The notes under the pieces were generated by a model, which saw only the letters and a list, made by a program, of their open reading frames with translations, was not told the DNA's origin and searched no databases. Positions 12,861 through 31,715 of a stretch of 64,000 nt of DNA are shown here, piece by piece. The DNA is taken from NCBI GenBank assembly GCA_021234155.1, contig JAJEKV010000113.1:1364001-1428000 (forward strand), in the 5' to 3' direction. The position numbers and the translations under genes are program-made. Source of the DNA: Isoetes taiwanensis. Its lineage: Eukaryota > Streptophyta > Lycopodiopsida > Isoetales > Isoetaceae. Each line of letters opens with the position of its first letter. The stretch's first letter is position 1.

Positions 12861-13144
12861 ACAATGATGCACATCTATTTATACCCATCTAAATTATTGA
12901 TGGTATATACATACAAATTATTGGACGTATAGCAAATCATATACATAATAGAATAATACAATACATATACAGAACCAATAATGCTGCTACAGTTGTATTT
13001 CGTCTCTAATAATCAGAGAAGATCAACACCATAGAACATTGCAAAGTTATTTTACAATAACACAATATATATTCAAAAGCTTTTGTGTAAAATATATTTC
13101 ATATTCAAAATATTTATGCAAAGTATATTTTCGGTATACATATA

Positions 13145-13766
13145 TCAAAATAGTTCCCTTTCTAGAACAATTTTCTCAAGGTCCCTGTCAATTTCCCCCA
13201 TCCAATCAAGTTGTGGATATAGTGTTTGTATCTCTTTGACCGATTTTTCGGAAGCTATTTCTTGCAAGGCACTGATAAAACGAAGTAGAAAGTCATCTGT
13301 GCTAAACATATTAGGATGATAGGATCGTGGATTTAATGACTGTGACTGATTGAAGCAACACTTGAGGGCGTCATCATCAACCATGATCATGCCTTCCTTT
13401 TCCTCAACACCTAGAGCATCCATCATGGTGCGCAAGCATTTCACAAATATTTTTTTACCTGTCAGATCCTTAGGGTTTGTAAATGAAGCACATTTGCTTT
13501 GATCCTAGATGGGCCTTAATCTCTATTTAGCTCAGGCACTACTCTCAAAACTTCATGTATATTTCCATGTTCCATAGATGACCAAATTGCACAACGAAAC
13601 AGACTAAAGGCCTGGTCCAACATCTCTTTCAGATAAGGGCGCAGGTAAACATATTTGGTATGCATTTCAAATGGTTTCTGTGCATATCATGACTTATCAA
13701 ATGTTGCTTTAGGTAACGTTCTGCATAGCACACCATTCAAATCAAAGACCAGTATTTTTGGGGAAG
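13145..13766 (-). CDS. Copy-1 multidomain gene, FCP1/NLI-type HAD phosphatase exon
   Basis: After the acceptor GTTCAG the sequence reads SPKILVFDLNGVLCRT (motif I at about 13726-13750), then YVYLRPYLKEMLDQAFSLF and CAIWSSM (motif II region, 13570-13645). After a frame change come KIFVKCLRTMMDALG, MIMVDDDALKCCFNQ (motif III/IV acidic pair, 13350-13392) and NPRSYHP. This is the FCP1/NIF phosphatase pattern (CTD-phosphatase-like). Motif I is DxN rather than DxD, as in a plant subgroup reading LDLNGLL. A stop about 12 codons after motif I and the frame change show decay. Confidence 0.7.
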
Positions 13767-13981
13767 CTGAACTATGTGTAACGCGTAAACAGATACGTAT
13801 GAGATGAAAGAAATGGAATAAGAAAATGCGCCAGGCGCGATTTATACAAAGAAGCATGTCAACAAATTCTAAAAATATGAAACCAAAGGAAACTCTAAAT
13901 CGCGCCCGGGTGCGATTTCCATATGCGCGTCATTAGTAAAATGCATGAATATCATAAGACAACGAGCTTGGCCACAATACC
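13767..13981 (-). repeat. Copy-1 intron before the HAD exon, two palindromes
   Basis: Palindromes at 13824-13843 (AAATGCGCCAGGCGCGATTT) and 13897-13918 (AAATCGCGCC...GTGCGATTT). The matching intron of the other copy (30345-30456) likewise carries two sites of its own palindrome family. Confidence 0.75.
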
Positions 13982-14407
13982 TTTCTTCTTCATCAATCCT
14001 CGTGGTGTATTCTTCCATTGCTTCTTTATTCTGTGTTGTCTCCGGTCTGCTAGAAGCATCAACCACATCAGTTAAGATCTGTATAGTTTGAACTATGGTT
14101 GATAGTTCATTACTCTTTACGCTAACTTTTTGGTTAGAGCTTTGATTCGACTCTCGATCCCCTGTCATTATCTTCATCCTTATTATTTTCATCCTATTCT
14201 TTATCTTCGATGTTCCGCGGGCATGTCGAGCGTTTTCGGCGGGGATCGGAACCACTATCGCTCTTTGGTGATATCCATATTGATGCTAGCGGTCCGTCTC
14301 ATAGCCTCCCGTTCTTTAGCCAAATCTGCAGGTATTTCAGCCTTAGAGCTAGAAGCTTTGCTTTTTGCACTGCCGATTGGACCCCTAGGTGCTTCCTCTA
14401 GCACTTT
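13982..14407 (-). CDS. Copy-1 multidomain gene, polar linker before the HAD domain
   Basis: Low-complexity Ser/Lys/Glu-rich stretch (SAKSKASSSKAEIPADLAKE, later DENNKDEDNDRGS, then SNQKVSVKSNELSTIVQ) ending near a donor (GAAAG|GTATTG) at about 13982. An acidic linker sits at the same place in the other copy. Frames shift at least once. Confidence 0.4.
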
Positions 14408-15356
14408 CTAAAAAAGGAGCTCTAAGAAATGCTTGGATCGATCATCGAGGACGACGCTTTGGCATTTCCTTGCTAACTTCAAAGCTTCCCTATCGATGTA
14501 ACCTCCGACATAAAGCTCCCAGCAAGTTGCCCCCAATGCGCAAAATGCTTCAACGAGATAATGAGAAAAGCCCATAGAGAACGCGTTCTTGTTTAGCATC
14601 CCCTTAATTGACGTTAGGAGCTGGTTTACTTTCTCATCTTCCTCTTCAAGTTCTCGCTGTTCCACATCTACGACACCCTTCCCCTTATCTTCAATAGTTT
14701 GCTCAAGATAGAAGACGTTTTGCAGGAGGGGTTCATCTAGCTGATAGCACTGCCATGTAAGTTTTTTGCCTTCTGGTTTCTCCTTAAGCCTTTCATATTC
14801 CTTATCATCCATCATGGCTATCATAATGATTAGCACATGAGAGATTTTACTTTACGTGCTAAACTCACTTTGTCCCTATTTTTTCATCTATAAGGATTGC
14901 TTGCAGGTATCACTTTAACGCATTCTAAATCCTTTGCGGCGGATAGAGCATATGCATAGGACATGTCGGAGGGTAAATTGTGACAATTGTATAATGCATT
15001 TCTGTCGTAAAACCACCGCATGTATCATAGAATGTATTACAGTCATGAAGCGACCATCTGATGCCTCGGTTATCAAGCATGAAGAGTGTGATATCATGCG
15101 GTCCTTTACCCACATCTGGAATTGTATTAAAACCAGTGGACACTTGGTAAAAGAATGTGGATTCTTCTTCGGAGTCTACTTCACCAATGCGACTTTTATT
15201 TTCAAGTCGGATGCCACTTTCGTGTGAATCCCAGCCAGGTTTGCAACGTTTTTCAACTTCTGTGCTCTGTTTGACAAAGTCTTTCGACCAAAAAACATAC
15301 TTCTTCAGATCATCATTGGAGACGTCGTATTTTTGCATTAGTCCTAGACCACTCAC
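14408..15356 (-). CDS. Copy-1 multidomain gene, DNA-methyltransferase-like segment
   Basis: Two open stretches (14925-15356 and 14408-14836) in different frames. The first includes KGPHDITLFMLDNRGI and GGFTTEMHYTIV, which fit the central strands of an N4/N6-type DNA methylase fold. The second includes the C-terminal strand-helix unit HYLVEAFCALGATCWELYVG, followed by GYIDREALKLARKCQSVVLD. In active enzymes this position reads roughly LIxxFxxPGDLVLDPFAGSGT and then an LGRxxIGIE strand. Here the DPFxGSGT SAM loop is CWELYVGG, so SAM binding is probably lost. The other copy has the same kind of replacement. The fold call rests on pattern and spacing. Confidence 0.45.
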
Positions 15357-15910
15357 CTGTAAGCCTTTTGTAACTCCGCTCCAACTGCCATCCTGAGCAC
15401 TCGAATATTTTTCAGTTGGTCGCAGGCGTCTTCAAATGATACCTTGTCCTTCGCTGCAGAACTTTTCTTGTAAAGGACTTCTTTTCTGATGCACCTGTCC
15501 AGAACCGAAATCAGTTCTTCATCGTCTAATCCCTGGGACTTCCTCATCTCTGTGACATGGAGATCGAATATTGATGTGTCAACAGGAGGAAATTTGCCTT
15601 GTGAATCAGACAACTTCTTCTCCACGTAGGCATCCCAGAATTCGTTCCATTTTTCTCAGACCTGGTCATAAGCAAAAATTATTTTGCAGGCATCCTTGGG
15701 TATAGTAGGGGCTTCGGAAGGATCTCCATTTCATCTCCTTTTTTTCTCTTCGCCCTGGTGCTCTTACTCTTATCTTGTATTATAGTCTGACAAAGTGTCC
15801 TTTCTAGCAATTTGAATTCAACGCTTTTAGACTGACCCTGTCTGGTTGGCATTGATTTCCCATACTCTATCCATTGGTTATGAGCATGCCGCAATTGCTG
15901 TATATAGGGG
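15353..15910 (-). CDS. Copy-1 multidomain gene, linker exon(s)
   Basis: Begins at a CCCCT acceptor. It reads RHAHNQWIEYGKSMPTRQGQ, then a basic stretch, then, after a frame change near 15660, EKWNEFWDAYVEKKLSD, SIFDLHVTEMRKSQGLDDEE and FEDACDQLKNIRVLRMAVG. The other copy has matching elements in the same order: RQQAESIGL, then KKWTDIWAQWTRGK, KLFDKQFMKRIHGLTDKE and YATILKETALRHW. The segment is predicted helical and charged. It ends at a consensus donor (ACAG|GTGAGT) near 15357. Confidence 0.5.
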
Positions 15911-16299
15911 CTGCGAAAAATAAATCTGTTAGTTCCAAATTAACAACAAATTGCGCCAGATGCGATTTGCGTATTCTAAAAGAGACCGCTTTCTTTGGTT
16001 AACACCGCAGTCAGTTTACGAAAATGCAAATCCGCGATGAAGCGATTTCGAAATAGAAGAAATCGCGCCGGTAGCGATTTCGCGTATTTTGAAAGGAGGC
16101 AGCTTTCACTGGTTGAAGCATTCTCGTTTTTGAATATGCAAATCGCGTCTGGCGCGATTTCAAAATAGAAGAAAATCGTGCCAGGCACGATTTGACTAAC
16201 CAGAATACTCAGTTAAACGTATCGAGTTTCTGAATAGGCAAATCATGCCTGGCACGATTTGCAAATACGAAAACGAAAAGAGAGGGAAGAAAGATTTAC
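15911..16299 (-). repeat. Copy-1 intron 2 with a six-site palindrome array
   Basis: This 389-nt intron contains six ~21-bp palindromes at 15948-15968, 16028-16048, 16060-16080, 16140-16160, 16173-16193 and 16240-16260. The half-site is AAATCGCGCC and its complement; the purest is 16173-16193 (AAATCGTGCC with GGCACGATTT). Each C/G change on one arm is often matched on the other, as in CGTGCC/GGCACG, keeping dyad symmetry. Spacing alternates between short and about 60-80 bp. Confidence 0.85.
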
Positions 16300-17426
16300 C
16301 TTTTGTACAGAAACGTTTTTCCCATGTCGTTAAGAAGTGCACTGATTTCGGCTAGCTCGGTAGGAGTTGTTGAGCCGCTCAAGAGCCTGCAGTTGCTGAC
16401 CGAATACAGCCTATAGAACAACTGATTTCCAGTATTCTGTGCCTTCCACATCAGAACCTTCTGAGCCTCAATTGAGTGCTGGCCATCTATTATCATGAAA
16501 TGTACGTCTTGGTTGTCGATGAAGTCCTCCAGCTTGTTCCACATGAGTACCTTCCTCTCTTCGTATCGTAAGGCATTACATTTGCCGGCATTGGTATCTG
16601 CCCTAGATTTTCGATCATGCTGTTGACTAACTCCAAGGAGTGCTGCTTGTCGTAACTTCTGCTGACATAAATAGCTTTAGTCGACCTGAAAAACCTATCG
16701 GCGTGGGCCGGGATGGGTGAAGCTAAGGCCCGATGTGGATACTTGTCGGCATTTTTTTTTGAGCTTGCTCATCGCCTCCAACTGCCGGCCTTGTCATCAT
16801 CACTTATAAGGCTGCTGCAACTTACGTAGTGTCCACGCCTCTAGAACTTGCATCTTCCTTATCCTTCAATACCGCATATAGACGCGCTCGAGGGGCCTCG
16901 TGCTGATGGCACGTCGTACAGTTGAAAGCCCTTCGCATATTCTTTTAGGTGTCAATGGCTCACCAACTGTCCAACCAAATTTGAACAAGGTGTCGACAGT
17001 GTCGTCTGATCTTAGGACAGTCTCTTTAAAATAACTAGAGGCGCGACCGATTAATCTTTTTTAGGCTCTTCTTATTTTTTTTGCCCCACTTCAACGAACA
17101 CTGAACAATATGAATCGTCCTATTCTTCGCATGTGATAACAATTCCCTGCTTCTTCATTTAATCAGTCTCTTTTACCCTAGACATGAAAATAAGATCTGT
17201 CTTCCCATTAGTCTTAAAGATCTCGACATATCATTCTGACCCCTCTATAAGATCTTCTTCTGGACATGGAGGTTCTACCTGAGCCTTTATTATTCCAGAT
17301 GTATATTCTAACGTCAACACACATGCTGTAGGTCTGTAACGGTAACGTCTTCATCTGTCCTTTGCTTTTTCTGGGCTAAAGATGTTTGACTGAGTTTGAT
17401 TTTCCTTTTGATTGTCCTTTGTGTTC
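16300..17426 (-). CDS. Copy-1 multidomain gene, exon 2 (N-domain and ParB-like domain)
   Basis: Starts after the acceptor CTGCAG and ends at the donor GTAAAT. The first half, with in-frame stops, matches the N-domain of the other copy: EYTSGIIKAQVE, YVEIFKTNGKTDLIF, then VKETD and GIVIT line up with FFVIEGLETE, YVEVSTSGKEKDLFL, then RDKKS and GVVLS. The second half is ParB/Srx-like: IYVSRSYDKQHSLELVNSM (the R..E helix of ParB), then QIPMPANVMPYD, then the hallmark FMIIDGQHSIEAQKVL at 16452-16500. This corresponds to ParB's IDGEHRLxAA block, which binds a nucleotide in bacterial ParB. Position and spacing fit the fold. No HTH DNA-binding domain is visible. A frame change lies between the two ParB halves at about 16545. 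Confidence 0.6.
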
Positions 17427-17949
17427 CTGCAGAATGATAGCATAACGTTAATGTTGAAATGTGAAAATATATGCTAACTTGCAACGTATGCAACAAAAAC
17501 GCGCTTGGCGCGCTTTGAAACTTTGAGAGATTATAATCTTAGTCTAAATTGCGCCAGGGGCATTTTGTCCGAAACAAAAGGGGTTTGTCAGTATAGGATA
17601 CAGAGATAAGAAATTAATATAATTCTTGGAATATATGCAACAAATACACGTTTGGCGCGCTTTAAAACCGACCTTAGAGATTTTAATCTTCATTTGAAAG
17701 CACAACTAACTATAGAAGACTAAAAATAGTGGATCTGAAATGAAGCGAAAACACAACATGAAGAAATATCAAAAATAAAGATATCGTCATAGCATATATT
17801 TGCATACATCTTGGGATATATGAACTGAAGTATTAGAGGACATGTGCTTCTTAGCGGATAATAACTCTAGTATTAAAGAAAAACATCCGATAAACCTAAC
17901 AAAAAGAGGGACGCAGAAACAAAATATATAAGAAAATTTTGATGATTAC
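17427..17949 (-). repeat. Copy-1 intron 1 with three palindromes
   Basis: The intron between leader and N-domain exons holds sites at 17496-17516 (AACGCGCTTGGCGCGCTTT), 17546-17566 (AAATTGCGCCAGG, decayed right half) and 17642-17663 (CACGTTTGGCGCGCTTT). All are variants of the copy-1 motif centred on GCGCCWGGCGC. Confidence 0.7.
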
Positions 17950-18063
17950 CTGAACGGCTAGCTGGATTAGTACTTTCAGCTTGTTCAACAAGATCCTGGG
18001 TTGCTTTGGCATGTCGCCCACCTCTACACTTCGGCCCGGCGGTTTCGGATCCTCGGATGCCAT
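17950..18063 (-). CDS. Copy-1 multidomain gene, exon 1 (leader)
   Basis: ATG at 18063 opens 38 codons rich in Pro, Lys and Arg (MASEDPKPPGRSVEV...), ending at a canonical donor (TTCAG|GTAATC). Exon 1 of the related gene at 26539 is also short, basic and ends at a GT donor, which supports this start. Confidence 0.5.
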
Positions 18064-19130
18064 AGAACCGCAAGTTAGGAAGATATGTTATGAGGCGGAG
18101 TTTTGGTTCAAATTTATATATATGGGTTGATAATCTAAGCCGTCAGATTAGAACCGTCATTTCAAATTCCCGTCATTTTAAAATTATACCACCTTAAGTA
18201 ACCGCCCATCCCGCTCATTTACATTTTTTTAATGTGCTTTTCTTTTTATTGCAATTTCAAGAAAATAATTAATTCTTATTTTCAAAAATGCATATGTGGC
18301 AAGCTACTTCCACCCTAATCTTCCAAGATCACCGAGCCGCTTCTAATAGCATCTTGGCGTCTTCAATCGACCATCTTCCAAGTCTTCAATCGATCATGTC
18401 CGCTGAACTACGGTGAGTGTCATTCCATTACGAATATGTACGGCTTTTTTTTTTTTTCATGCCAATTCTATCATTACGGTTGTTTATCGATTATTGGGAG
18501 AATGTTATCTTTTAACAGCAAACTTGAAGCGCCGAGTAGGATTATGTAAAGTCGAAGATCTGAATCCAAGTTCTATGTGCCATGGTGTTCCTCTTGGAAA
18601 TAGTTTTACGTAAGATTTCGATTATAAATTGCAATTATGAGGATGAGGCTCTTCGAAGACATCCCGTTAAGCGTCTGATTGGCTAAAAGCGTGGGCACAA
18701 TTGTAGCATGGCCAAAAGCGTCCGAAAAAGGTGTGTGTATAATTACGTTGACTCTTGAAACATAATCTAAATATATCATAACATGCGTCATGGTATGAAT
18801 ATTGAACATTCTTTTATGCTCTTTAGCTTGATATTATCAACCCGAGGAAAACCACCGTTAATTAAAATGTGTAGTTTCTTGAGGTTGGTCGGGGCCGACT
18901 AGAGGGCATCAAAGGATTTCAACGTTCGACATTGCATATAAAAGAAAACATAATAAAAGTCTTGTGAGATAAAAGTCTGCAGTACAAAATTGCGCCAGGC
19001 GCGAGATTATATTAATATTCACAAAATAAAATGTAGATTTTTTTTTTGTGTGTCAAAATCGCCGGTATAAGTTTTTCAAACTAACATAGGAGGGACGTAC
19101 ATATCTAACACAATAAGGCTGTACATATCT
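18064..19130. other. Copy-1 upstream region with one palindrome
   Basis: No recognisable coding sequence. It includes a copy-1 palindrome at 18987-19007 (ATTGCGCCAGGCGCGAGATT) and AT-rich tracts. It presumably contains the promoter of the gene starting at 18063. Confidence 0.4.
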
Positions 19131-19502
19131 CTACAAAATGTCACAAAGGCCCACTTGATCAGCAAGATAACGAGTCACGTGGCCACTGTACCACTTTGAT
19201 ATGACACCGTCATCCCATTCATTGGGAATGTTGAGTCCCCATATCAGAGTATCCCGTCGATCTCTGGCCTTCCTAATCATATCCTCATATTTATTTGTTG
19301 GCATGAGATACACTAAGAGCCTGAAGAGTCGGATAAACCCCGTGATGCGATGGTAGCATTCCCATGGCCTTACATAAAGATTGTCGAATGGCTTATCCAT
19401 CTCTTTTTGTAGGTTTTGAACAGCACAATTAAGAAGTAACTTGTACATGGTCCAGCGTTGATTGTCGTCCAAAGGAAGTGTACTTGAATGAGAATAAGCC
19501 AT
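19131..19502 (-). CDS. Unrecognised 124-codon ORF within copy 1
   Basis: ATG at 19502 (MAYSHSSTLPLDDNQRW) to a stop at 19131. The frame is clean, with a Trp/Tyr/Arg-rich composition (RPWECYHRITGFIRLFRLLV, NKYEDMIRKARDRRDTLIWG, KWYSGHVTRYLADQVG). It lies upstream of the multidomain gene in the same orientation and is bracketed by copy-1 palindromes (18987 and 19588-19717), so it appears to belong to the element. A faint resemblance exists to the ORF at 31808-32192 (KYEDMIRKA versus KFEIVHKA, and a W.GH..R.L end). Function unknown. Confidence 0.45.
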   Translation of the reverse strand: MAYSHSSTLPLDDNQRWTMYKLLLNCAVQNLQKEMDKPFDNLYVRPWECYHRITGFIRLFRLLVYLMPTNKYEDMIRKARDRRDTLIWGLNIPNEWDDGVISKWYSGHVTRYLADQVGLCDIL

Positions 19503-19587
19503 GTGAAATGCACTAGAACGAGAGAAATTAACTAATTAGAAAATAATATTCCTCTCGCCAGAAAATAATCTGAAAAGTTTTATGTTC

Positions 19588-19717
19588 AAAATGCGCCAGA
19601 CGCGTTTTCTAAAGGGTGTTTTTTTAAGAGTTCTACTCTATATGCGCCTGGCACATTTTGAATAAATTTGCAGGAAATGAAAAGGGCAAAATTAAAATGC
19701 ACCAAAGCGCGCGATTT
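19588..19717. repeat. Copy-1 palindromes, upstream cluster
   Basis: Three sites at 19588-19608 (AAAATGCGCCAGACGCGTTTT), about 19640-19659 (ATATGCGCCTGGCACATTTT) and 19694-19717 (AATGCACC...GCGCGCGATTT, decayed). They mark the upstream limit of the palindrome zone. Confidence 0.7.
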
Positions 19718-20111
19718 AGATCCATACTAGCATATCATAGTATAAAAAAAAGCATATGATACATAGATCTACTTAAGGGCAGAGAGCATTACTTACCAGA
19801 TTTTATATGACATAAAATAAGATATATGAGGAATTGATGACATGCATAGCCTTATGGTGCCTTAGATGTAATAGAAATAAAATGTCATCATAAACAAAGA
19901 TGCATACATATAGATAGATAGTATCGAAGAAGTTATTATAGAAGTTATCAAAGAACTCCCTCTCACAATTTTTTTTATAAAGTATGCTATTCTTTATTGA
20001 TTAAAAAAAGTATGCTTTCATTTAAGGACATGTTGGGGAGATGTTTTTTGGATATACTAACTTATTCTATGTTTGTATGTATTAAAGGTCAATGGCATGT
20101 AACATGCTAAA

Positions 20112-20262
20112 AAAATGCCCCCAATGATGATGACCAAGGCAAGGAAAAATCCCCAAATGATGAAGATGATGCCCAAGGAAAGGAAAAGACTCTAAATGAT
20201 GTTGATGATGGCAATTGAAAGGAAAAGACCCCAAATGAAAAGGATGATGCCAAAGGAAAGGA
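20112..20262 (+). repeat. ~48-bp coding tandem repeat (acidic)
   Basis: Three to four units of a 48-51 bp repeat, each encoding roughly PNDEDDAQGKEKT. The third unit contains a stop. It forms the acidic N-terminus of the adjacent DUF7869-type gene. Confidence 0.75.
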
Positions 20263-21790
20263 AATTGTACTTTTATACTGGTCGATTGAAAAAACAAAAG
20301 GTCAAGATCACATGAATGCAATAGAGAGGTAGTAGGAGAAGGGATTATTGTTCTAGCAGATCCTATCAATGCAGTCAATGATGAAAGATTAGGAGAGGAC
20401 AGGTTAGGTGTGGCAATCTCAAAATTATATGACAATTGGAAGGAAAAGGGGTCAGGCAAACAAGAATGCCTTGCTTGTGTGAAGCAACTAGAGGTTGCAA
20501 CTATTGTGGCATGGCCTAGGGGCCCGATATTCAAGCGGGGGGAACTACATGTTACCTATAGATGCAGAACTATTGTCAATAATATTCACATAGTGTAGCA
20601 AGAGGCCACTTCCAACTTTCAAACATTATCCCATCAAAAGATGCAAGTCAGATTATGATTGTTCTCCTGAAGCCTTGATGAAGGTTTGGGGAAGTGAATG
20701 TTGTTGGGCCTCATGTATTAGAATGTTCACAATAGACGAGATGGTGGGAGAAAGAGGTACATATTAGGAAAATAAGTGTGATAGCAGGAGGAATTTCATG
20801 TACACCATATTTGGCTATGCAATTCGGGATGAAAGATCAAAGAAGAAAAGATTTCCATTGAAGCGGAAAGTGGATATGTTCAAAAGCATGGATGGCTATA
20901 CATGGAATTACAACCGCTTCTTAGCACAACTAAAGAGACATGAAGCTGGCAGAGAATTGCATTGCACGGGAACACTGGCCTGGTAAGGTCTACCTCAAGA
21001 ACTATAGCTGCAAAGGAAATATTTGAAAGATATGTGGATTTCAATGCAAAAAGCATGCCACATAAGAGTAAGAAGGATGTCTGAGGGGGTAGAGGAGTTG
21101 TTGAAAAGAGATTGCCATCCCATTGTACCCAGAAGAGCATATTAGAGGAAATAAATGCATTGCTTCGGGAACTTGGAGTGGCGTCTATATCCTAGCCCGT
21201 TTTAGTAGGCTATGGAATAAGCATTTCAAGCATGTGACCATAGCAACTTCAAATAACTTTGCAAAGTGCAATTTATGCTAAAAGTGAAGGAGACACTAGA
21301 TAAGGCTGCAACCAAGTCTAAGGGCTAAGATAAGGGAATATATGAAGGACCATATGACCAACAAAGACTTGTCTTCCACAATTCAAGTACATACCTAAGT
21401 CATGTGAAAGATCATACCCTTTCTTGATTTCAATGATCGGGGGCAATCTTGCACGGCAGTCTCAAACCTACTATGGGCATTTTAGTTTGGAGTTGTGGAG
21501 TGATGGCCCAGATTTTTACATTGGGAGTATCATGAGGTGTTTAAGAAACTATGAGAATGGTTATAATGGTCACCTCCAAGATCCTATAGCTAGCCAGGCA
21601 CTACATAGTGCATTGTTGGATGAAAACCCTAACAATATTGAAAAGTTTAGCAAGGCAAGGTTCAGGAGGCATGGACCTAATTGTAGGTACTTTTGAAAGA
21701 GTCAATTTGGGGTTCCTAATGCCCGGACATACTCATGAGGATGTGGATGCATTGTTTGGAAAATATAGTCATGTCTTGAGATAGCAGACA

Positions 21791-22711: not shown

Positions 22712-23005
22712 AAATGTGAGAGTTACAATACCTCAGGATGTAAGGAATAAGGCTATCATATCATTGGGGATGCTGGAGGAAAAATAAAAAACTATGTAAA
22801 TATGCTTTCTTCATTAATATGTATCAGTCACAGTTATGAAAAGTTGTGTACTACATGAGCAGTTGATATATGATTTTGTAATTTGAAGTTAAGGTGTGTG
22901 AATTTAAGTTAAGATGTGTGATTTTAAGTTAACGTTAGTGAATTTAATCAAGTTACTAAAAACTTGCAATTAAAAATGTATCCCAAAATCAAGACATCAT
23001 CCCAA
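22711..23005. other. 3' flank of the copy-1 DUF7869-type gene with short tandem repeat
   Basis: AT-rich. A ~22-bp unit (TTAAGTTAAGATGTGTGATT) occurs about three times at 22880-22945. No terminal inverted repeat could be recognised here. Confidence 0.45.
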
Positions 23006-23250
23006 TTTTTTTAAGGTAAGAGTGTTTTTCCATTAATTAATAAAAGTCATACATAAATGTTACTAATGAGAGTAGTGTTCTCATTAGCTACATCATAACA
23101 GCAACAATTACATAATTAAGTAGCAGTATAGAGTTGTTCAAATGAACCAAAAAGAGCTCTGCTAGAAGTAACAAGATATTGCATAAGGAAAGGTAATTAA
23201 CTCGCCATGCCCCTATTGAAGGAGCTAATATGTGAACAAAAGCAGCATCA
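23006..23250 (-). mobile_element. LINE 3'-end fragment (minus strand)
   Basis: T-rich start followed by AAGGTAAGAGTG, TTTTTCCATTAATTAA and TAAAAGTCATACA, similar to the sequence at 6172-6240. This is interpreted as the 3' terminus of an L1-type LINE. The inner end is unclear. Confidence 0.4.
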
Positions 23251-23861
23251 ATCATGAACAGTCGATCTCAAAAAACCTGCAAGGACAAAATTCATTCCAA
23301 GTGCTTGAGCAAAATGTTGGACAAGAGGAGGATTAATTACTGAGCAGTAGCAAATATGAAATGGAAGCACGATTTAGATAAGGCTAATGAAGAGTGGTAA
23401 AGGATGATGGCTAAGGTGATGGGGATTGCATAATTTGATCAAATATGGCATTGTAGACACCCAATAGAAACCGGAGTTTGTCCCAAACTTGTAGCTATTG
23501 AATTCAGATCCATTTTCCATCAGCAGCTGGTGAATATCTTGCTTACTCATCAGAAGCAGTAGTGTACTATAGAGATCTGCCAACATCTTGTGTGAGTAGT
23601 ACAATTCCCTGTATCTACTCAGCTGCCTATCTGTCAGTGAATAATGGTACTTGAATGATGGTTAAAAGTCGCATTTAATTAAAGTGGGTCAAATCTCAAA
23701 TTTTGGGACTCGGACTGAAAATGGGACTCATACTATAGAAAAAAAAATTCTGAATTGATTGCTTGAATAGAATTACACATCACACACAAAGAATTGGGTA
23801 ACTTGTTTTCCTCATAAATTTTACAAACCACTAGTTGAGAAAGTTTTCAAGCTTCTCAATA
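23251..23861. other. Spacer between the two composite units
   Basis: No recognisable gene. The minus-strand open frame at 23374-23604 has no known domain. Outer ends of the two units probably lie in this stretch, but no terminal repeats could be seen. Confidence 0.3.
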
Positions 23862-24467
23862 TTATCTACCCTCATACAATGATATAGCATGGAGGTTGCT
23901 CATGGCTTTGTCCATCTCCCTTTTTGGGATCTTGTGTGTGTTGTCCTTTGCAATGTGAGAACTTGGATATGACCATACCACACACTCCACCAATTCCCTC
24001 CTTTGAGGATCAGCATGATTTGCCCTCCACTTCTTCTCCCGGCAGTCGGTGTATTGCTCCTTCAAGTTGCCCTTCTTGTGTCTTCCAATGGGCTCCCAAT
24101 ATTGAATTTGGAATCGAGGGATTTGAACTCCTCTCCATCAGCCATAGTGGTGGTTACATCAGAGAGTGCCACCCCTAACCATATTGGACAATCCTCATCA
24201 TCAGGCCTTACTAGCACAAAGTATCCTTCCTTGATGTCCTCAAAGGGATCCCACTCAGGAAGATCAAACCACTTCGGCTTTGAGGCCTTACTTCCCACAA
24301 ACCACTTGGAACCTTTGTTAGGACCCAAGTGAACATTCTTAGACGTGCTTGCTTCTTGAGAACCCTCCCATCTGGTAGGGAGTCCATGTGATTTTTCTTA
24401 AGAGTGGAGGTGTGCTTTCTATTTCGAACATCATCCCAGTGTGTTATATAATCCTTGATGCCCTTCA

Positions 24468-24953
24468 CTAGTTGGCTAGAGTCTTTAACAGTCTTGAAGG
24501 GAGGTAGTGGTTTTGGCTGCCCTTTAGGAATGAGAACTTCACAGCAGCACCACGTTGCCACAACTCTGGTCTCCACTTATATTGCATGATTGGTATTCCA
24601 TCCCTAAACCAAACCTTGAATTGAAGTGGCTTTGTGTGTCCTGTCAACTGATCCTTACCATATAGCAAGTATCCCTCGACAAATGATTTCCAATCTGCAA
24701 CCTCATCCATCAAGAAAGCCATTGGGTTGGGGTCAATGCAACTCTCAAACACATCCATTAGTTCAGGGAGACTAGTCACGTTTTCTCCCTTGAGCTTGGT
24801 GGAGAAAGTTCCAAAGAATGCATCTATATCATCATGCATATGCCCAACTATCATGAATCCCACTTTCACAACTTTGAATACTCCCACTGCTGTCAAGTAT
24901 GACATTGCCCCAAACATCCATCTATTCTTGTTTTCTTTCCAACAGTTGTCCAA
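24468..24953 (-). CDS. DUF7869-type protein, core fragment of copy 2
   Basis: 162-codon open frame holding the GHMHDDIDAFF motif (HTHEDVDALF in copy 1) and the EVADWKSFVEGYL..LQFKVWFRDGIPIMQ region, nearly collinear with 21.7-22.0 kb on the plus strand. The conserved His and acidic residues make this the part most likely to be catalytic if the protein is a transposase. That role is inference. Confidence 0.6.
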   Translation of the reverse strand: MDNCWKENKNRWMFGAMSYLTAVGVFKVVKVGFMIVGHMHDDIDAFFGTFSTKLKGENVTSLPELMDVFESCIDPNPMAFLMDEVADWKSFVEGYLLYGKDQLTGHTKPLQFKVWFRDGIPIMQYKWRPELWQRGAAVKFSFLKGSQNHYLPSRLLKTLAN

Positions 24954-25079
24954 TTGAACACATAGCTCCTCTGGTAGTTGTTTCTCAAGTAAGGGGAAAT
25001 CATCCCAGTCCTCCTTGATTCACTGGACACCTTGGATGTGAGCTTTTTTATCTGCCTTTGGTAACAAAGCGGTTGATGA

Positions 25080-25536
25080 TGTTGAATCGCTGGAGCATGT
25101 GTAATGGGCACACATGAAGAATGACTCAGTGGAAGAGTACCGAAAGCCCATCAAAGGGCCGGTAGCTCAGTGGTAAAGTACTTGGCTTGCAAGCAAGAGG
25201 TCCTGGGTTCGATCCCTAGCCTGTCTACCCAATCATAGAAATCTCATTTCTCAACATGGTATCAGAGCCATGGTCCCAAGTAGAGGGTGCTTAACTGCAC
25301 CGGGATAATCCCCAGTGGTGTAGGGGGTTAGAATGAGCAAAGCTTGGCGCTGGAAAGCCCAACTCCCGCAAGGGTGGAGTTGCCCAGGAGGGAAGCATGT
25401 GGATTGTGGTGAAGGCCGGAATGGATTGGTGTGCCCATTAAGGGGAATGTTGGAATTTGGAGCATGTGTAATGGGCACACATGAAGAATGACTCAGTGGA
25501 AGAGTACCGAAAGCCCATCAAAGGGCCGGTAGCTCA
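25080..25536 (+). mobile_element. TRIM-like small LTR element
   Basis: A 457-bp non-coding LTR element. The 5' LTR is 25080-25256 (177 bp, TGTTG...CAACA, the expected inverted TG/CA ends). The PBS starts immediately at 25257 (TGGTATCAGAGCCATGG), complementary to the 3' end of initiator tRNA-Met, the usual plant Copia/TRIM primer. The internal region is about 190 bp without ORF. The PPT is ATTAAGGGGAA (25437-25447), directly followed by the 3' LTR (25448-25536), of which only 89 bp remain. The two LTRs are nearly identical over about 90 bp apart from the first 20 bp. It lies inside the copy-2 DUF7869-type gene. Target-site duplications are not visible because the 3' LTR is truncated. Confidence 0.75.
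25156..25229 (+). other. tRNA-Ala(TGC)-like sequence inside the 5' LTR
   Basis: GGGCCGGTAGCTCAGTGG and the following bases fit a tRNA. Acceptor GGGCCGG faces CCTGTCT (six of seven pairs, two G-U). The anticodon arm is CTTGG-CTTGCAA-GCAAG with anticodon TGC. The T arm is CTGGG-TTCGATC-CCTAG. Box A (TAGCTCAGTGG) and box B (GGTTCGATCC) are intact, so a pol III promoter is plausible. The D-stem is weak, with changes that look like C-to-T decay. It lies within the LTR, so it is probably an element part rather than a functional tRNA gene. Confidence 0.6.
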
Positions 25537-26070
25537 CATGGAAGTTTGGATCATCCCTCCATAGATCAAGCACAAAATGACCATAGGTTCCAGTTCCATG
25601 ACCATGTGTTAAGACACCCGCCGGACTTACTTTCATCCGAAAAGCGTTTTGACAACGCTTTGGGTAAAGGATCTAGCTTTGGCAAGAAAGTCTTGTATTG
25701 GTCCATCTTATCATGAATTAGACACAAAATCTGTCAGGCAAGATCCGAGAAAATGTTCTCCAAGGCCAATACAAACCGCCTACATGATATTTGGTCCCTT
25801 TGGTGATCTGCAAATTGCTCCCTAATTGCCATTCTTTCTTTCTCTATTGCAGTTGATGCAAGTGTATCCTTGAGTTGAATGCAAGTGTTGCACTTTGAGA
25901 ATGAAAAAGGCCTTTCTGAAACTCACCTCTTCACGTAGGAATTCCTTGGGCCATTGTATCACAGATCTCGCAGCCTCACCGAGAGTCTTGGCTTCTTCTG
26001 TTGGCCTCATCAACAATGCATCCGCATCAAATACTTGTATCAAAGCGATTCTCGTGTATCCCTCTTCCAT

Positions 26071-26538
26071 GGCGCTGCAGTGAAGAGTTCCCGTGTGTTA
26101 CAGCTCCTCTCCGCTTGCTACCTTAGCCCCGTGCTCATCGATCAAATCAACTATTTGCAAAAAGACACGCAGTTAGAAATAGACAGAGAGTAAGGCGCTG
26201 TTAGGAGCTTACAGCGTCGTGGCGCCATCCGTGAACTCGCTCAAATCGAAGGGCCTCCAGTCGATGTGCGCCCCAAAGTCGCCAATGCCTGAGTAAAACT
26301 AAGCGCCCGGAAATCTCCACTGCGCTCACTAAGTCCCTGGAAATGAATGAATTTCGAATTGGTGTTTGGGCGGGCTAAAGCTGGCCGTGCTGTACCCTTA
26401 GCCCGCTTTTTTCCCTTGAATGATTGTATGTCCTTAATTTCAAATTTAAGAACACGCCCGACCTTTTTTACGTGTAGTCCTAAAACCTCCAAGGCGTGGA
26501 AGAGGCTCAATTTACAAGGGAGTTTGAGCAGCAAGAGG
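26071..26538. promoter_or_regulatory. Divergent intergenic region of copy 2
   Basis: About 470 bp between the starts of the minus-strand DUF7869-type gene and the plus-strand multidomain gene. GC-richer than its surroundings. No clear TATA box was recognised. It is expected to hold both promoters. Confidence 0.4.
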
Positions 26539-26638
26539 ATGCGGGGGCATACAGATATGACGACTCCATTGAAGAAGCGAGGCGCCGGAGCGGAAGTTGG
26601 TTCAAGCGGCACCAAGAAAAGAAAGACAGTGACTCCAG
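26539..26638 (+). CDS. Copy-2 multidomain gene, exon 1 (basic leader)
   Basis: ATG followed by MRGHTDMTTPLKKRGAGAEV, Gly/Ser and a KKRK cluster (possible nuclear signal), ending TCCAG|GTGAGC. It joins exon 2 in frame (..TVTPA|FTAETLV) across a 62-nt intron (26639-26700) that ends CTTGCAG. Confidence 0.65.
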
Positions 26639-26700
26639 GTGAGCTCTCAGTTTTGTGTTCGGTCAGGATACCTTTACTGATCCATCTTTCTGTCTTGCAG

Positions 26701-27836
26701 CATTCACTGCGGAGACGCTAGTGATCACTAGCAGAACTCCGTTCTTCGTTATCGAGGGATTGGAGACAGAGCTACTTGATACACCAGCAGATTCTTGGTG
26801 GTATGTCGAAGTATCAACAAGTGGGAAGGAGAAAGATCTGTTTCTGTGGCAAAGGGATAAGAAGAGCTCCGGCGACAAGTACAAGAAGGTCGGTGTCGTG
26901 CTCTCCGTCTCTGCCCCAGATTCGAAGCATCTTACATTGTATGTGGAAGACTGCCTGAAGGGTAAGTTCTACCACACGAAGAAGTTATCAGTATCCAATT
27001 ACTCTCACTCTTCAATGAGCAAGTCGAAGGGGACCGACAAAAGGCCGGCGCCTTTAAATTGTCAGAACCTTGGGTGGAAGGATCTGGAAGGGATGAAGGA
27101 GGCCGGAACCCTGACATCCAGGGAGCTTGGAATGGAGATTTCCAGGGTGAGGGAGAAGTTGTTCAACACCGGGAGCTTTACGTCCAGCGTGCTAAAGACT
27201 CTAAAGCACTCGGCAGTTTCCATGGATGTTGTAGTTCATAAAGAAAAAACTCCGGACAAGACTGCAGATGAAGCAGAGAGTACACGGGAGGATTCAGATG
27301 CTGAAGAAGAGGAAGATATGGTCGACTCCCAATTCTTGGATCCAGATGAGCAGATTAGGAAATCACAGAGAGGGGCCCAGAAGATGGAGAGGCTGACTCA
27401 GTACTATCCATTAGGGATATCACACAAGCTGCTGGACATCATACGCCTCAAGGTTTGTACAGGAGATGCCGTCTTGTTCAACCACGGGGAATTTAATCCA
27501 GCACACATGTTGGAGATTCTCGAACTTGATGGTGCGACATCTTGTTGCAGATCCAATGCCTCAGGGATGTCATACCATTCAAAGAGATCGACGGTGAGTT
27601 GTTCACCGAAGTCCGAGGAAGACCCGAAGGAAAAGACGCCGGGTTTTGGGTTGTATGCCAACATTCAGGTGAGGGCGCGGCAGTATTGCGCACGAGGAAA
27701 AGGAAGTGCCGCAAAGGATCAAGGACAGATATTCCAAACGAGAGTGCAGAGTTCTTTCAGCGGACACGCCACCAACGGAGCCGCCCAAGATTAGCCACTG
27801 CCAGAACACAATAGCAGCAAGTGCCAGCTACATAAG
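26701..27836 (+). CDS. Copy-2 multidomain gene, exon 2 (N-domain and ParB-like domain)
   Basis: About 830 nt in one frame encode the N-domain (ITSRTPFFVIEGLETELLDT, WWYVEVSTSGKEKDLFLWQR, VGVVLSVSAPDSKHLTLYVE), a hydrophilic part with an acidic run (DAEEEEDMVDSQFLD) and GDAVLFNHGEFNPAHMLEIL, the first ParB helix. After a frame change near 27535 comes IQCLRDVIPFKEIDGELFTE, then GFWVVCQHSGEGAAVLR (27640-27690). This is the ParB 'DGQHS' block with DG replaced by C. After a second change, RYSKRECRVLSADTPPTEPP matches copy 1's RLYSVSNCRLLSGSTTPTEL. The exon ends ATAAG|GTAAAT as in copy 1. Confidence 0.6.
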
Positions 27837-28730
27837 GTAAATTACTATCTCTCTTATGGGGGTTTGAAAGTCGACTTCGCGAGAAAACCCCTTCCGGATT
27901 TCGAAGTCTCTCGATGTTTTCGGCTTCGCGAAGTCGAAAGCCGAGGAGGAAATCGGCAAATGTCGGAGGATCGCGGGGAGACTTTCGACTTTCGCGAAAC
28001 CCCGCAGAAGTAAAGAAAATTAAATATTGAAGGGGCTTTCTGTTACGGGCCGAAAGCCCCCAATCTTTTGTGCTCCTCTTACTTTCGCCGACTTCGCGAG
28101 CCGGGAGATACCCTAGGCAAAAATGAGAACATTAGAGATTAAGGGTTGACGAAGTGAAAGCATCGAAGCCTTCCCATCCTTTCTTCCCACGCACTATCCG
28201 GGCAATGTCGCTTAGTTTATTTCCTAAGTTGCATCGGAAGAGCGGGGCAATATGGATTTGGGAATAGCGGTGCTTTCCTCTGGCATTCACTCTCTCCTTC
28301 TATGTTCTCTCCTCTCGTGGGTATTCTTGACTTCGCGATCGAGAAAGTCCCTTGAATCTTCCCCTTTTCACTGTGGTCCTCTGGGACTTTTTCCGACTCA
28401 TGAGTCAAAGAAACTCCAGGGTAATAGAGAAAACATTAGAAATTAATGGTTGAAGAGTGAAAGCATCGAGTCTTCCCAATCTTTCTTTCCGCCTCTTCGG
28501 CAATGTCGCTTAGTTTATATCCTAAGTTGCATCGCTCAAGAGGCGTGAAAGCAAAGATTTGGGAATGCTGATGCTTTTGCTCTCGCCTTGACTCTCCTAT
28601 GTTTTCTCCTCTCAGGGTGGTATTCTGTTCGCATGAGTCGAGAAACCCCTTGCACCCTCCTGCTTATTGTTTCCTTCGGGTGTTAGGAGATACTTTCATG
28701 CTCTGACATTGTGACATTTAATGAATGCAG
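27837..28730 (+). repeat. Copy-2 intron 2 with seven palindromes
   Basis: Donor GTAAAT and acceptor GAATGCAG. Sites occur at about 27866-27888, 27917-27940, 27981-28001, 28080-28104, 28324-28347, 28387-28414 and 28625-28646. They are variants of CTTTCTCGACTCG and its complement, some centred on TTCGCGAA and some on CATG. The intron also holds a ~230-bp internal duplication: the CATCGA..CTTCCCA..CTTTCTTCC segment near 28160 recurs near 28460. Confidence 0.8.
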
Positions 28731-29517
28731 CCCGTGATCCCGAATCGAGAGATCATACACGCTAGGCAACAAGCTGAAAGCATTGGGTTGTCCTCACCGG
28801 CCCTAAAGGAAACAGGGCCCCCTCCGATAAGTGGGAAGACCTTTGAGAAACTCTCAGGTATGTTCTTCCGAAGGCCGTGAAGATGATGAGGGAGAGGATG
28901 AAGACGAAGAAGAAGAGAACACCAAGAAAGTGCGGGGAATCTCTATCGACCAATATGACCTCATTCTTAGCACCGAAAGGCCCGAAAAAATGGACTGATA
29001 TATGGGCTCAATGGACAAGAGGCAAGTGAAGGACAAGAATGGAGAATTGCCGTGGTAGGTCGGACCCAAAGTTGTTCGACAAGCAATTCATGAAAAGGAT
29101 ACATGGCCTAACGGACAAGGAAACGCTTTGATCTACAGGCGTAATCCCGGATGGAACAATCTCGCTAAGGAAAAGTAGAAGTTCAAAAATGCAGGACTAA
29201 ACGGATTATGCCACAATCCTTAAAGAGACGGCGCTGCGGCATTGGAAGAAGGCATCACAGAGTTCTCCGCAATCTTGCCTCCAATGCACCATGATTTTGA
29301 TTATTATAAGGAGAAGGTCAGCGCTTGATGAGGAAGACATGAAGGAGTTGAACCGCCTATGTCAACCCTACATCAACACCAAGCTAAAAGCGTAACGCCA
29401 AAACCCTCCCCTTTCGAACGTGCTATGGCAATTCAAGAGGAAGCTTGATTCGGGTGGTCCCATTTAAGATCGATGATAGCTCCCCTCCATTCCCGGTAAC
29501 CTTGGGACACAAGGGGT
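28731..29517 (+). CDS. Copy-2 multidomain gene, linker exon (decayed)
   Basis: Starts CCCGTGATCC and reads REIIHARQQAESIGLSSPAL, then an acidic run near 28890, then KKWTDIWAQWTRGK, KLFDKQFMKRIHGLTDKE, TDYATILKETALRHWKKA and EEDMKELNRLCQPYINTKLK in two frames with several stops. Each block has a counterpart in copy 1 (EKWNEFWDAYVEKK, SIFDLHVTEMRKSQGLDDEE and others). Confidence 0.5.
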
Positions 29518-30344
29518 TTGGTGGTCAGAACCGTGCACTGGGTGGCCCGGGGCACTATTTGCCATGAATATGATCAAGACCCCACCCTATTTTATGAAAA
29601 GGCTGACATTGAGCAGTGGTACAAGACGTATCTCGACATGACCGAGCTGGATACTTTCAGTTTCCTTATCTTTTGCATGCCGGGCAATCAGACAACTGTT
29701 GTGTCACAATGGGCAGCTGATATTAACTTCACCAACAAGATCTTGTATTCCATATACGAACTGGAACATGAGTGTAGACTTGGACTGCTAAAGGCACCAA
29801 GTTTTGCCAATGTAGTTTTGGTTTTGGTTTCAAGATCGGCTGCAGACCTGGACAAGTGGTGGTCGAGCGAACACCACTATCTCGACAAGTTCATGATTTC
29901 TCAAGAGCAGATGGAACCCTGGAAGGGTGGCACATTTATGGAGGATGTGCCATTGATGGACAAAGTCAGCACTGATGGTGCGACAGGTCCAATACATAGA
30001 ATTCCTATCCGGCCAAGAGTTATCAAGTACTTCATAACCAGCTTGGTCGAGGAAGATCATATTGTATGCGAGTGGTACATGAATGGCCTGTTCTCTCAGG
30101 GGGCTATACTGTATGGAATGAAACCAATATCCGTGGTTGGAAATAAGGACATGGTTGAAATCATTCGGTCATACCTGGACCTGCTTCATGAGCATTTCAA
30201 AGGGAGGAAGAAAAATGGAAGCAGTAAGGACGATGATGACGAAGACAAACCTGACAGCCAGGGAGAGAAAGATGACGGAGACGAGAATGTCCAAGGTTTA
30301 GACGAGGATGTTGCCGAACATATTCTCGAGAACCTGAGATTGAG
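29518..30344 (+). CDS. Copy-2 multidomain gene, DNA-methyltransferase-like domain
   Basis: 276 codons without a stop. TFSFLIFCMPGNQTTVVSQW, then INFTNKILYSIYELEH and FANVVLVLVSR, follow the usual central part of N4/N6 DNA methylases (G.LFVFC....W....GF..RNEIVW....E.ILVFSK). RPRVIKYFITSLVEEDHIVC follows the RPxxLIxxLIxxFxxPGDxVxD strand-helix. Where active enzymes have DPFxGSGT, this protein has EWYMNGLFSQGA, and no DPPY-type motif IV was found. It is therefore probably a methylase fold that no longer methylates. It ends in an acidic tail (DDDDEDKPDSQGEKDDGDEN) and a donor TTGAG|GTGAGT. Confidence 0.5.
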
Positions 30345-30456
30345 GTGAGTTCACTTTGCTCTCGGAAGTCGAGAAACGCTCCGAGTCTTTAACTTTTTCT
30401 TTTTCCGACTCGCGAGCGAGAAAACGTTTCCTATCTGACGTTTTTCATCATTCCAG
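30345..30456 (+). repeat. Copy-2 intron before the HAD exon, two palindromes
   Basis: A 112-nt intron with canonical GTGAGT and TTCCAG ends. It carries palindromes at 30355-30378 and 30399-30426 (TTTTTCCGACTCGCGAGCGA core). Same position and site number as the copy-1 intron at 13767-13981. Confidence 0.75.
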
Positions 30457-31312
30457 GGACATCGATTGCAACGAATCGGGATCATTGTCAATATCACAAG
30501 GATCTACTGGCAGTTCACATCACGAGGATACTGGATCCAAGAAAGGCAGTCAAGAGCAAGACAGTGCGGGCAGCAAGAAAGGACCCGAAAAAATAATGAT
30601 CCCGCATATGGATCCCGATCAAGAGGAAATCTGGTCAGAGCCAAACTTCAATTGGGATCCATCGGGCCCCACCAAGCTTGTAATATTTGACGTCAATGGA
30701 GTATTAGTTGCAGTATACCATGATAAAGACGTCCCTGAGCTTAACACCTCGCAGATACCGACAAAAGTGGGGTCTAAAATCGTGTATCCCCGGCCTAAAG
30801 CAAAGGAGATTATTGATTGGTGCCCAGGCGGGGATTCTCGGGTGGCCATATGGTCTTGTATGGCAAAGAAAAAATATTGTCAATGTCCTCGGTGTTCTCG
30901 GCCTTCCAGTTTTTGAAGTTCAAGTTTGTTTGGGAAACGAAAAGGGTCGAAAGCATGTGTGAGACCTCGATCCCACCATCACAAAGGGGAAGCCTATTAT
31001 GGTGAAAAGTGGGGACAGGTTTATGAACAATTCGGACTTTAACAAACACAACACGCTGGATCATAGACGACTCGCTACAAGTGCTATCATAACTTCGTAA
31101 AATACAATCATTGACAAGACTTATCGCCCTAAGAGTATGAAACGGATAGGTAGTTGTCTATGAATCTCGCCCCTCAGGCCGGAATCCCTGCGCTTGCCAT
31201 TCTTGTGGCCTATGTGATTAGGAACTATCCGAACCTCAAGCGAGTCGATCCAGAGACAGTAGCGATCATGAAAGCTATGGATGACAAATATTATGGTGAT
31301 CAAGAAGAGTGA
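30457..31312 (+). CDS. Copy-2 multidomain gene, FCP1/NLI-type HAD phosphatase exon
   Basis: Ser/Lys-rich leader (SISQGSTGSSHHEDTGSKKG), then TKLVIFDVNGVLVAVYHDKD (motif I, about 30674-30720), then YPRPKAKEIIDWC and RVAIWSCMAKKK (motif II area, about 30837-30872). After frame changes come VCLGNEKG, NNSDFNKHNT and WIIDDSL (acidic motif, 31057-31077). The C-terminus, IPALAILVAYVIRNYPNLKR followed by VDPETVAIMKAM, stops at 31310-31312. As in copy 1, motif I is DxN. Order and spacing fit plant FCP1-like phosphatases. Confidence 0.7.
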
Positions 31313-31389
31313 CCGCTTCCGGATAGTCGAGTTGTGTAAATTTTGTAAAGAAACATGAAGAAATGTACTATATTTTGTAATGAATATAC

Positions 31390-31715
31390 TTGTACATTGA
31401 GTTTTCACTGGCTTTCTCGACTCGCAAGTCGAGAAAGGCATGCTTGTCCTATTGATGAAACTATGTGTATGTTTGTTTGTGTGACTGGATGCAGTCATAT
31501 TCTATAATGGTTGTACATTGGTTTTTCGGCCTTTTTCGACTCATGAGTCGAGAAAGGCATTGCTTGTCTCATTGACGAGACCATTTGTATGCTTCCGTGT
31601 GTGATTGGATGCAGCCATATTCTAATGAAAATGGTTGTACTTTGACTTTTTCGGGCCTTTCTCGACTCGCGAGTCGAGAAAGGCACTACTTGCCACGTGA
31701 TTAGATGTAGTTACA
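31390..31715 (+). repeat. ~120-bp tandem repeat, three units each with a palindrome
   Basis: Units start TTGTACATTG at 31390 and 31511, and TTGTACTTTG at 31635. The last is shorter. Each carries one copy-2 palindrome: 31412-31437, 31531-31556 and 31657-31682. The last is a perfect 26-bp dyad (CTTTCTCGACTCG and complement), extending to 30 bp with flanking GC/GC. This lies just downstream of the multidomain gene's stop. Confidence 0.85.

Follow-up and report, generated by a model that had tools for sequence, protein, structure and literature searches.

A 64,000-bp stretch of the Isoetes taiwanensis genome (the window, C923:1364001-1428000) contains two similar coding regions, and the question was whether they form a plant gene family of their own. 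An earlier note had described them as a stand-alone family joining ParB-like, methylase-like and FCP1-type phosphatase domains, possibly a chimeric mobile gene. The analysis showed a mobile two-gene element with high copy number and constraint. The three-part second gene (gene B) is, in place of a stand-alone family, probably the accessory gene of two old, broken, Sola-like cut-and-paste DNA transposons, its product acting on element DNA; the other gene (gene A) is the DUF7869 gene. The suggestion of a mobile chimera held in so far as gene B travels with a DNA transposon of high copy number, as its accessory gene, and likely joins prokaryote-like and eukaryote-type parts. Positions are given in window numbering; copy 1 belongs to subfamily 1 and copy 2 to subfamily 2; E22 (loci L022 and L029) is the subfamily-1 reference element. 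The genome searched comprised 1,658,258,908 bases in 1110 contigs.

Two copies of gene B

The motif strings quoted in the earlier note were present in both copies. FMIIDGQHSIEAQ was confirmed in the open reading frame (ORF) 16296-16676 and FDLNGVL was found in 13687-13929, both on the minus strand (copy 1); FWVVCQHSGEGAA was confirmed at 27530-27814 and FDVNGVL was found in 30344-30916, both on the plus strand (copy 2). YVEVSTSGKEKDL was located in 26643-27794 (plus), and YVEIFKTNGKTDL at 17192-17230 (minus), directly after a stop. The matching splice ends were also found: the donor after the ParB-like exon read TACAAAAG followed by GTAA in copy 1 and TACATAAG followed by GTAA in copy 2, and the start of exon 2 (SPY..Q..HAR.QW) was common to both subfamilies.

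Stops and frameshifts broke both window copies; in ORF 16296-16676, about 88 of the 126 residues shared the reading frame of the relatives. Direct comparison of copy 1 with copy 2 gave matches of 42% over 36 aa (E 7e-5) and 42% over 38 aa (E 3e-4), and 15 aa were matched around the HAD motif (E 0.02). This likeness was short and weak because both copies are broken. Pieces of copy 1 (L001) matched exon 2 of L022 at 82% over 97 aa (window 15356-15655), 77% over 70 aa and 56% over 151 aa. Comparison of L022 with subfamily-2 loci revealed homology in exon 1 (34% of 83, E 8e-11), exon 2 (24% of 286, E 5e-19) and exon 3 (31% of 188, E 2e-23), the E-values being those of a set of five sequences, which show mutual homology and not database rank. 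Since these open relatives were alike in all three main exons, both window loci are copies of one gene with the same domain order, as had been proposed. In the gene B product of about 1,200 aa, a ParB/DndB-like domain (DGQHS) is followed by a long linker, then by a methylase-like region and last by the NIF/FCP1-type HAD domain.

Transposon structure and copy number

When the copy-1 ParB exon was the query, the genome yielded 150 scored matches, the best of 3111 first-look candidates, and the copy-2 exon-2 ORF yielded 138, the best of 2923; the candidates are first-look matches, unconfirmed as copies. Many of the scored matches had no internal stop. Twenty subfamily-1 loci were fetched from the ParB-exon match list, and three were extended to full elements. 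These were about 12.5 kb long with a 32-bp terminal inverted repeat (TIR) at both ends, and all three subfamily-1 elements with both ends fetched had a 4-bp target site duplication (TSD; TCTT, ACAT and GAAT). The 3' end of L022 was common, within about 30 bp, to 13 of the 19 other fetched loci, and 14 of all 20 (L009-L028) carried the TIR, differing at no more than 6 positions. The subfamily-2 TIR AAGTCGTATTTAATTAAAGTGGGACTCATTCC was related to the subfamily-1 TIR AACCATCATTCAATTAAATTGGGATTATGTCT; it formed the 3' end in 4/4 loci L036-L039 and recurred as a 5' copy at window 23666 (6 mismatches). Of the Sola-type features, the 4-bp TSD was found in subfamily 1 and TIRs in both subfamilies; a 4-bp TSD rule is given for Sola2 elements (PMC3627910).

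The natural units in the window are two abutting transposons, at 12321-23663 and from 23666 to about 32476, and the extent first proposed was corrected accordingly. Their features were as follows.

12321..23663, minus strand: the whole of transposon 1, of subfamily 1, with gene B in minus orientation; E22 1827-14275 matched in pieces
12321 and 23651-23663: ends of transposon 1, placed by the exact 32-bp TIR and the outer end
12321..12352, no strand: 3' TIR of transposon 1 (AACCATCATTCAATTAAATTGGGATTATGTCT, 0 mismatches)
13145..13771, minus strand: gene B copy 1, last exon, NIF/FCP1-type HAD (FDLNGVL), broken; acceptor placed by eye
13981..15910, minus strand: gene B copy 1, exon 2, linker and methylase-like region, broken; splice ends placed by eye
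16300..17426, minus strand: gene B copy 1, broken exon for the ParB/DndB-like domain with DGQHS; DndB profile on relatives
17950..18063, minus strand: gene B copy 1, presumed short first exon with ATG at 18063; read from the sequence only
20768..22711, plus strand: transposon 1, gene A, a fragmented DUF7869 gene (probable transposase) that runs divergently from gene B
22994..23009, no strand: transposon 1, inner half of its 5' TIR; sequence reading
23651..23663, no strand: transposon 1, outer half of its 5' TIR (TTGAATGATGGTT); sequence reading
23666..32476 (end approximate), plus strand: transposon 2, of subfamily 2, with gene B in plus orientation and without its 3' end; TIR at 23666
23666..23697, no strand: 5' TIR of transposon 2, 6/32 mismatches to the subfamily-2 TIR, 1 of them within the first 23
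23862..25672, minus strand: transposon 2, gene A, a fragmented DUF7869 gene (probable transposase) that runs divergently from gene B
26539..26638, plus strand: gene B copy 2, presumed short first exon, from the reading of the letters
26701..27836, plus strand: gene B copy 2, exon with a decayed ParB/DndB-like domain (CQHSGEGAA; VVDDQHSVRAAQVL in the relative L037)
28731..30344, plus strand: gene B copy 2, exon 2, linker and methylase-like region, open from 29500; ends placed by eye
30457..31312, plus strand: gene B copy 2, last exon, NIF/FCP1-type HAD (FDVNGVL), broken; relative L036 with 40.6 bits

Two bases lie between the end of transposon 1 (23663) and the start of transposon 2 (23666). 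The homology of transposon 2 with L036-L039 ended at 32476, before their 3' TIR. In transposon 1, the 5' TIR is split in two by about 640 bp (window 23009-23650). A twin of the element pair with the same arrangement was observed at C1089:12507518-12521385, either a duplicated region or an unmerged haplotype; its identity to the window was 100% in the ParB exon, 93% in the copy-2 exon-2 piece and 92% in the DUF7869 piece.

Gene A and its link to gene B

In transposon 2, window 24471-25019 matched DUF7869 with 125.9 bits (E 1.9e-36). Gene A of transposon 1 scored 14.9 bits, below the cut-off of 26, and was homologous to 24471-25019 (45% of 84 aa, E 4e-21). Gene A was divergent from gene B in each window element, and DUF7869 sequence was present in 3/3 full subfamily-1 elements. 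Comparison of 128 listed subfamily-1 DUF7869 loci (131 rows minus 3 second pieces of listed loci) with the 150 listed ParB-exon loci revealed 21 pairs within 20 kb, 19 of them divergent, while the shifted-list control averaged 0.44 pairs, with at most 4. The window pair and its C1089 twin are two of the 21. The pairing of gene A with gene B in subfamily 1 is not due to chance. Judged by its domain, gene A is a probable transposase. If DUF7869 is taken as the transposase, gene B lay on the opposite strand, as in the Ectocarpus Sola1-1 type, in 19 of the 21 pairs and in both window copies.

Selection on gene B

The ratio of nonsynonymous to synonymous substitutions (dN/dS) of the ParB exon was calculated for the ten of the twenty loci that passed an open-frame filter (45 pairs, 12 reported singly). 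Deep subfamily-1 lineages gave 0.04-0.08 at a dS of 1.4-2.3, near saturation, and close lineages gave 0.11-0.59; summed dN over summed dS for all pairs was 0.072. Exon 2 gave 0.14-0.24 (6 pairs), and the HAD domain 0.14-0.84 (15 pairs, all close and noisy), with 0.13 in the deepest pair. The methylase-like C-part gave 0.22 and 0.31 in deeper pairs. Two further pairs had saturated dS and low dN. Exon 2 of subfamily 2 gave 0.16-0.29, and L036 against the window copy 0.32. Because only open copies were used, dN is somewhat lowered. The gene B protein is kept by purifying selection, the methylase-like part least.

This constraint bears on the explanation that gene B is a host plant gene captured as passive cargo (Pack-type) with no role in transposition. 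The NIF/HAD family looks eukaryotic, with matches in 0/14 control genomes, and giant elements commonly carry additional genes (PMC12477816), both of which would suit such a capture. However, E22 and element 2 shared no DNA match of at least 80 bp and their subfamilies still share the gene, down to exon ends and order, and the purifying selection between deep subfamily-1 lineages is unexpected for passive cargo. Passive capture is therefore considered improbable.

Domains of gene B

Pfam NIF matched the last exon of L022 with 63.6 bits and that of L036 with 40.6 bits (cut-off 21.8). In copy 1, window 13145-13504 scored 21.8 bits, at the cut-off; the last exon of copy 2 itself had no Pfam match. 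These profile scores firmly place the last exon as an NIF/FCP1-type HAD domain, and the phosphatase-type domain claimed earlier was thereby borne out. Searches of single copies with PHROGs and NCBIfam gave weak matches, the HAD models scoring below their cut-offs. The HAD catalytic motif is DxDx(T/V), with the second Asp as the usual general acid/base. Motif I read DLNG or DVNG, the second Asp being replaced by Asn, so that FDLNGVL and FDVNGVL lack the catalytic DxDx(T/V).

The NIF search of the genome listed about 100 loci at 61-85 bits, with several sets sharing common profile ends; these are perhaps further transposon families with an NIF domain. For pairing, 101 rows were kept, and 49 above about 85 bits were dropped as host-gene-like. 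Only 2 pairs were formed between the listed NIF loci and the ParB-exon list. The idea that every DUF7869 element carries NIF was rejected, as the listed NIF loci formed 1 pair with PF25273 and 0 with PF01555.

A DGQH core with an upstream R and H is the ParB/DndB motif. In the alignment of 14 gene B copies, the DGQHS core, the upstream R and H and their spacing were conserved across both subfamilies. The DndB (DGQHR) profile matched 3 of the 14 (best E 0.0017), and in the whole 1.66-Gb genome it gave 25 matches, 24 of them on the same profile stretch (37-127); 10 of the 25 overlapped exons listed for gene B. The ParB-like phrog_1033 (PHROGs) reached E 0.36 with single copies and matched 3/14 members (best E 0.077). 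The founder of DndB was once classed in the ParB superfamily (PMC10853773). The ParB-like identity of the DGQHS exon is moderately supported by the DndB profile. The sole ParB_N match in the genome (L040, C1105:236600-237800) was rejected as gene B; its translation looked like a broken bacterial-type ParB, perhaps contamination or an organelle-derived insert.

Beta-class N6/N4 methylases have the motifs IV, (D/N/S)PP(Y/F), and I, FxGxG. Motif IV and a full motif I were not seen in either window subfamily, and Pfam N6_N4_Mtase (PF01555) matched 0/11 aligned gene B members. The subfamily-1 stretch IEAFCPLGTTC...ARKCQSVVSDDRAKNFL resembled LDAFSGSGTTIAC...GRNCVAVDIDAEAVNFI of the methylase locus L130; this likeness was reached by 3/300 shuffles for L022 and L012 and by 14-15/300 for L011 and L025. 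The methylase identity of the exon-2 region in the window subfamilies is thus weak: the likeness to L130 and the setting speak for the methylase-like label of the earlier note, while the methylation motifs are missing.

Sister elements give that setting. The N6_N4_Mtase search of the genome found 150/150 scored loci over the cut-off, the best of 1443 candidates. These 150 listed loci and the best 150 of 9902 DUF7869 candidates formed 24 close pairs, 22 of them divergent; 17 divergent pairs were spaced 4.7-5.6 kb apart, and the shifted control gave a mean of 0.33 and a maximum of 2. A methylase gene therefore belongs to many DUF7869 elements of the genome. L130, from one such pair, had near-standard ADLPYG and AFSGSGTT but was itself broken. 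Between the best-150 DUF7869 list and the ParB-exon list there were 2 pairs, 0 divergent (control 0.44), and the methylase list formed 1 pair with each subfamily-1 list among listed loci. As the best-150 DUF7869 loci scarcely pair with the subfamily-1 lists, the sister elements are other subfamilies than those of the window.

Another explanation is that the ParB and methylase labels are wrong, the motif likeness being due to chance, that exons 1 and 2 encode unrelated domains of plant origin or peculiar to the transposon, and that only DUF7869 and NIF are real. It is compatible with gene B being an accessory gene. Such mislabelling would fit exons 1 and 2, which had no usable Pfam, NCBIfam or PDB match, the non-significant hhalign comparison described below, and an L130 likeness of at best 3/300 shuffles. 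Yet the DndB profile picked the same gene B stretch out of 1.66 Gb, the DGQHS core with its upstream R and H and spacing was conserved between subfamilies, and Pfam-grade methylases lay divergent from DUF7869 in sister elements. We consider it unlikely that both labels are wrong.

Comparison with databases and known elements

Sequence search of the PDB with three alignments gave chance-level matches (E at least 0.25), or none at 0.001. No match was found in a 5.8 billion-sequence protein database for the copy-2 exon-2 piece or the spliced L022 protein. Pattern scans of 84,980 prokaryote genomes, a method that finds close relatives only, gave none, as did megablast against phage.

The domain types are prokaryote/phage-like, and the window elements could on that account be remnants of an endogenised large DNA virus or a prophage-like insertion. 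Against such an origin, the elements have conserved TIRs, 4-bp TSDs, introns and thousands of dispersed candidates, and no relative was found in 50,697 phage records by tblastn or in 2.9 million viral contigs by pattern scans, which find close relatives only. A viral or prophage origin is extremely improbable.

Among phage proteins, the ParB-methylase XTK82984.1 (Pfam ParB_N 32.8 bits, N6_N4_Mtase 100 bits) resembles gene B in having a ParB-type domain ahead of a methylase; however, it has 422 aa in a single uninterrupted frame and no phosphatase. Like NIF/FCP1-type HAD phosphatases, gene B scored above the Pfam NIF cut-off in relatives of each copy, but it has DLNG or DVNG in place of DxDxT, and its domain forms a fusion with other parts of a transposon protein. 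Nicking activity of a Bacillus ParB-methylase has been mentioned (PMC5512222).

The closest description was that of Sola1-1_Ec32 from the brown alga Ectocarpus, a 21.5-kb element (PMC12477816). Like the elements here, it is a DNA transposon of more than 10 kb with a ParB and methylase gene opposite the transposase; the protein, ParB-like and N4/N6 DNA methyltransferase, has 1104 aa. Compared by description only, its methylase is called as such, and no phosphatase domain is mentioned in the available text. In contrast, gene B comes from a vascular plant and has an NIF/FCP1-type domain in addition, and methylase motifs are missing from the window subfamilies. According to PMC12477816, which cites Iyer et al. 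2011 and Petroll et al., similar proteins occur in green and red algal transposons. Sola2-Fanzor elements also have 4-bp TSDs and carry a passenger next to the transposase (PMC3627910), but this passenger is Fanzor and not ParB/methylase/NIF. The layout had been thought unpublished. A transposon gene with ParB and methylase is published (PMC12477816), while a ParB-methylase-NIF fusion was not found in the literature searched, a weakly supported negative since most subscription papers lie outside it.

Evidence weighing against the accessory gene

Several results weigh against gene B as the accessory gene of Sola-like transposons acting on element DNA. Concerning the transposon itself, no TSD and no element with both ends were seen in subfamily 2. 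The identification of DUF7869 as a Sola-type DDE transposase is our assumption, and a single-sequence AlphaFold model of a DUF7869 piece (mean pLDDT, the predicted local distance difference test, 38.8) was unused, as was that of a second window piece modelled without alignment (34.3). The DUF7869 gene was in pieces in all three full elements, which would therefore depend on transposase from other copies; many listed subfamily-1 DUF7869 loci elsewhere were open. In subfamily 2, the link to DUF7869 comes from the window copy and its C1089 twin, the 2 pairs formed with the subfamily-1 DUF7869 list among listed loci. DUF7869 was found in 0/4 fetched subfamily-2 relatives within the stretch fetched, and subfamily-2 loci formed 0 pairs with the PF25273 list among listed loci.

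Concerning the domains, no gene B copy was matched by PF02195 (ParB_N) in the genome search. The genome-wide best DndB match had E 0.236 and 19.8 bits against a cut-off of 29.1, and all 25 were below the cut-off; DndB support is only moderate because of this E-value and because copies of one family are not independent. In the comparison with L130, the other four subfamily-1 pieces (42-225/300 shuffles) and all four subfamily-2 pieces (100-233/300) were at chance level, partly because some pieces lack the stretch. The closer pair L022/L021 gave a dN/dS of 0.80 in the methylase-like C-part.

A profile-profile comparison was made by hhalign with 46 phage ParB-methylases (44 of 80 loci plus L042 and L045) and gave no significant match, with probabilities of 0.6% and 1.0%, both alignments being of low diversity. 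The ParB part (18.7) was outscored by one of 16 control families (22.5), one control was slightly more probable (1.1%) than the methylase part, and the methylase-like region aligned best to the phage ParB part, not to the phage methylase. The ParB-methylase-NIF order was observed only in subfamilies 1 and 2, and NIF formed 0 pairs with sister methylases among the lists compared; the fusion is therefore special to window-like subfamilies, or the NIF exons lie outside the top lists.

Proposed role of gene B

As the accessory gene of these transposons, gene B would work beside gene A, whose product would be a DDE transposase cutting and pasting the element. The gene B protein would act on the DNA of the element that encodes it. 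Its ParB-like domain would recognise or nick this DNA, and the methylase-derived part would serve here only as an S-adenosylmethionine/DNA-binding scaffold and is probably an enzyme in the motif-intact sister elements. The phosphatase-like domain, with Asp changed to Asn, would dock on the host transcription or chromatin machinery and not remove phosphate. The most likely use would be to mark or shield element DNA, allowing expression or transposition despite host silencing; alternatively, the element would benefit from regulated transposition.

A wider, tentative possibility, on the doubtful side, is a vascular-plant transposon superfamily with its own bacterial-type base modification. The sister elements would mark element DNA through intact N6A/N4C methylases, and the window subfamilies would have converted the same gene to a ParB-pseudomethylase-pseudophosphatase adaptor which reads the mark or recruits the transcription machinery via the FCP1-type domain. 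A ParB and methylase gene opposite a Sola-1 transposase is already known from the brown alga (PMC12477816). New here, and absent from the literature searched, are the occurrence in a vascular plant, the fusion with a phosphatase domain and the retention under selection of a methylase core that has decayed. If true, transposon-borne ParB/methylase genes, reported from algae in PMC12477816, would also be present, and in very many copies, in a land plant; a transposon gene would have gained a eukaryotic C-terminal-domain (CTD)-phosphatase-type domain and lost its methylase centre, yet stayed selected; and N6-methyladenine or N4-methylcytosine would be predicted on the DUF7869 elements of this lycophyte.

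Other features of the window

The palindrome CGACTCGCGAGTCGAGAAAGG was repeated at window 31403-31692 and in introns of element 2, and GCGCCTGGCGC-type palindromes were seen by eye in the introns of element 1; purely as a thought, these intron and flank palindromes are possible binding sites. Window 50221-52221 held a degenerate array of 10-bp units around TTCTAGAA, which we take to be heat-shock-element-like. An ORF at window 32898-33290 resembled, by eye, reverse transcriptase, and a 925-aa open frame lay on the minus strand at window 39523-42297.

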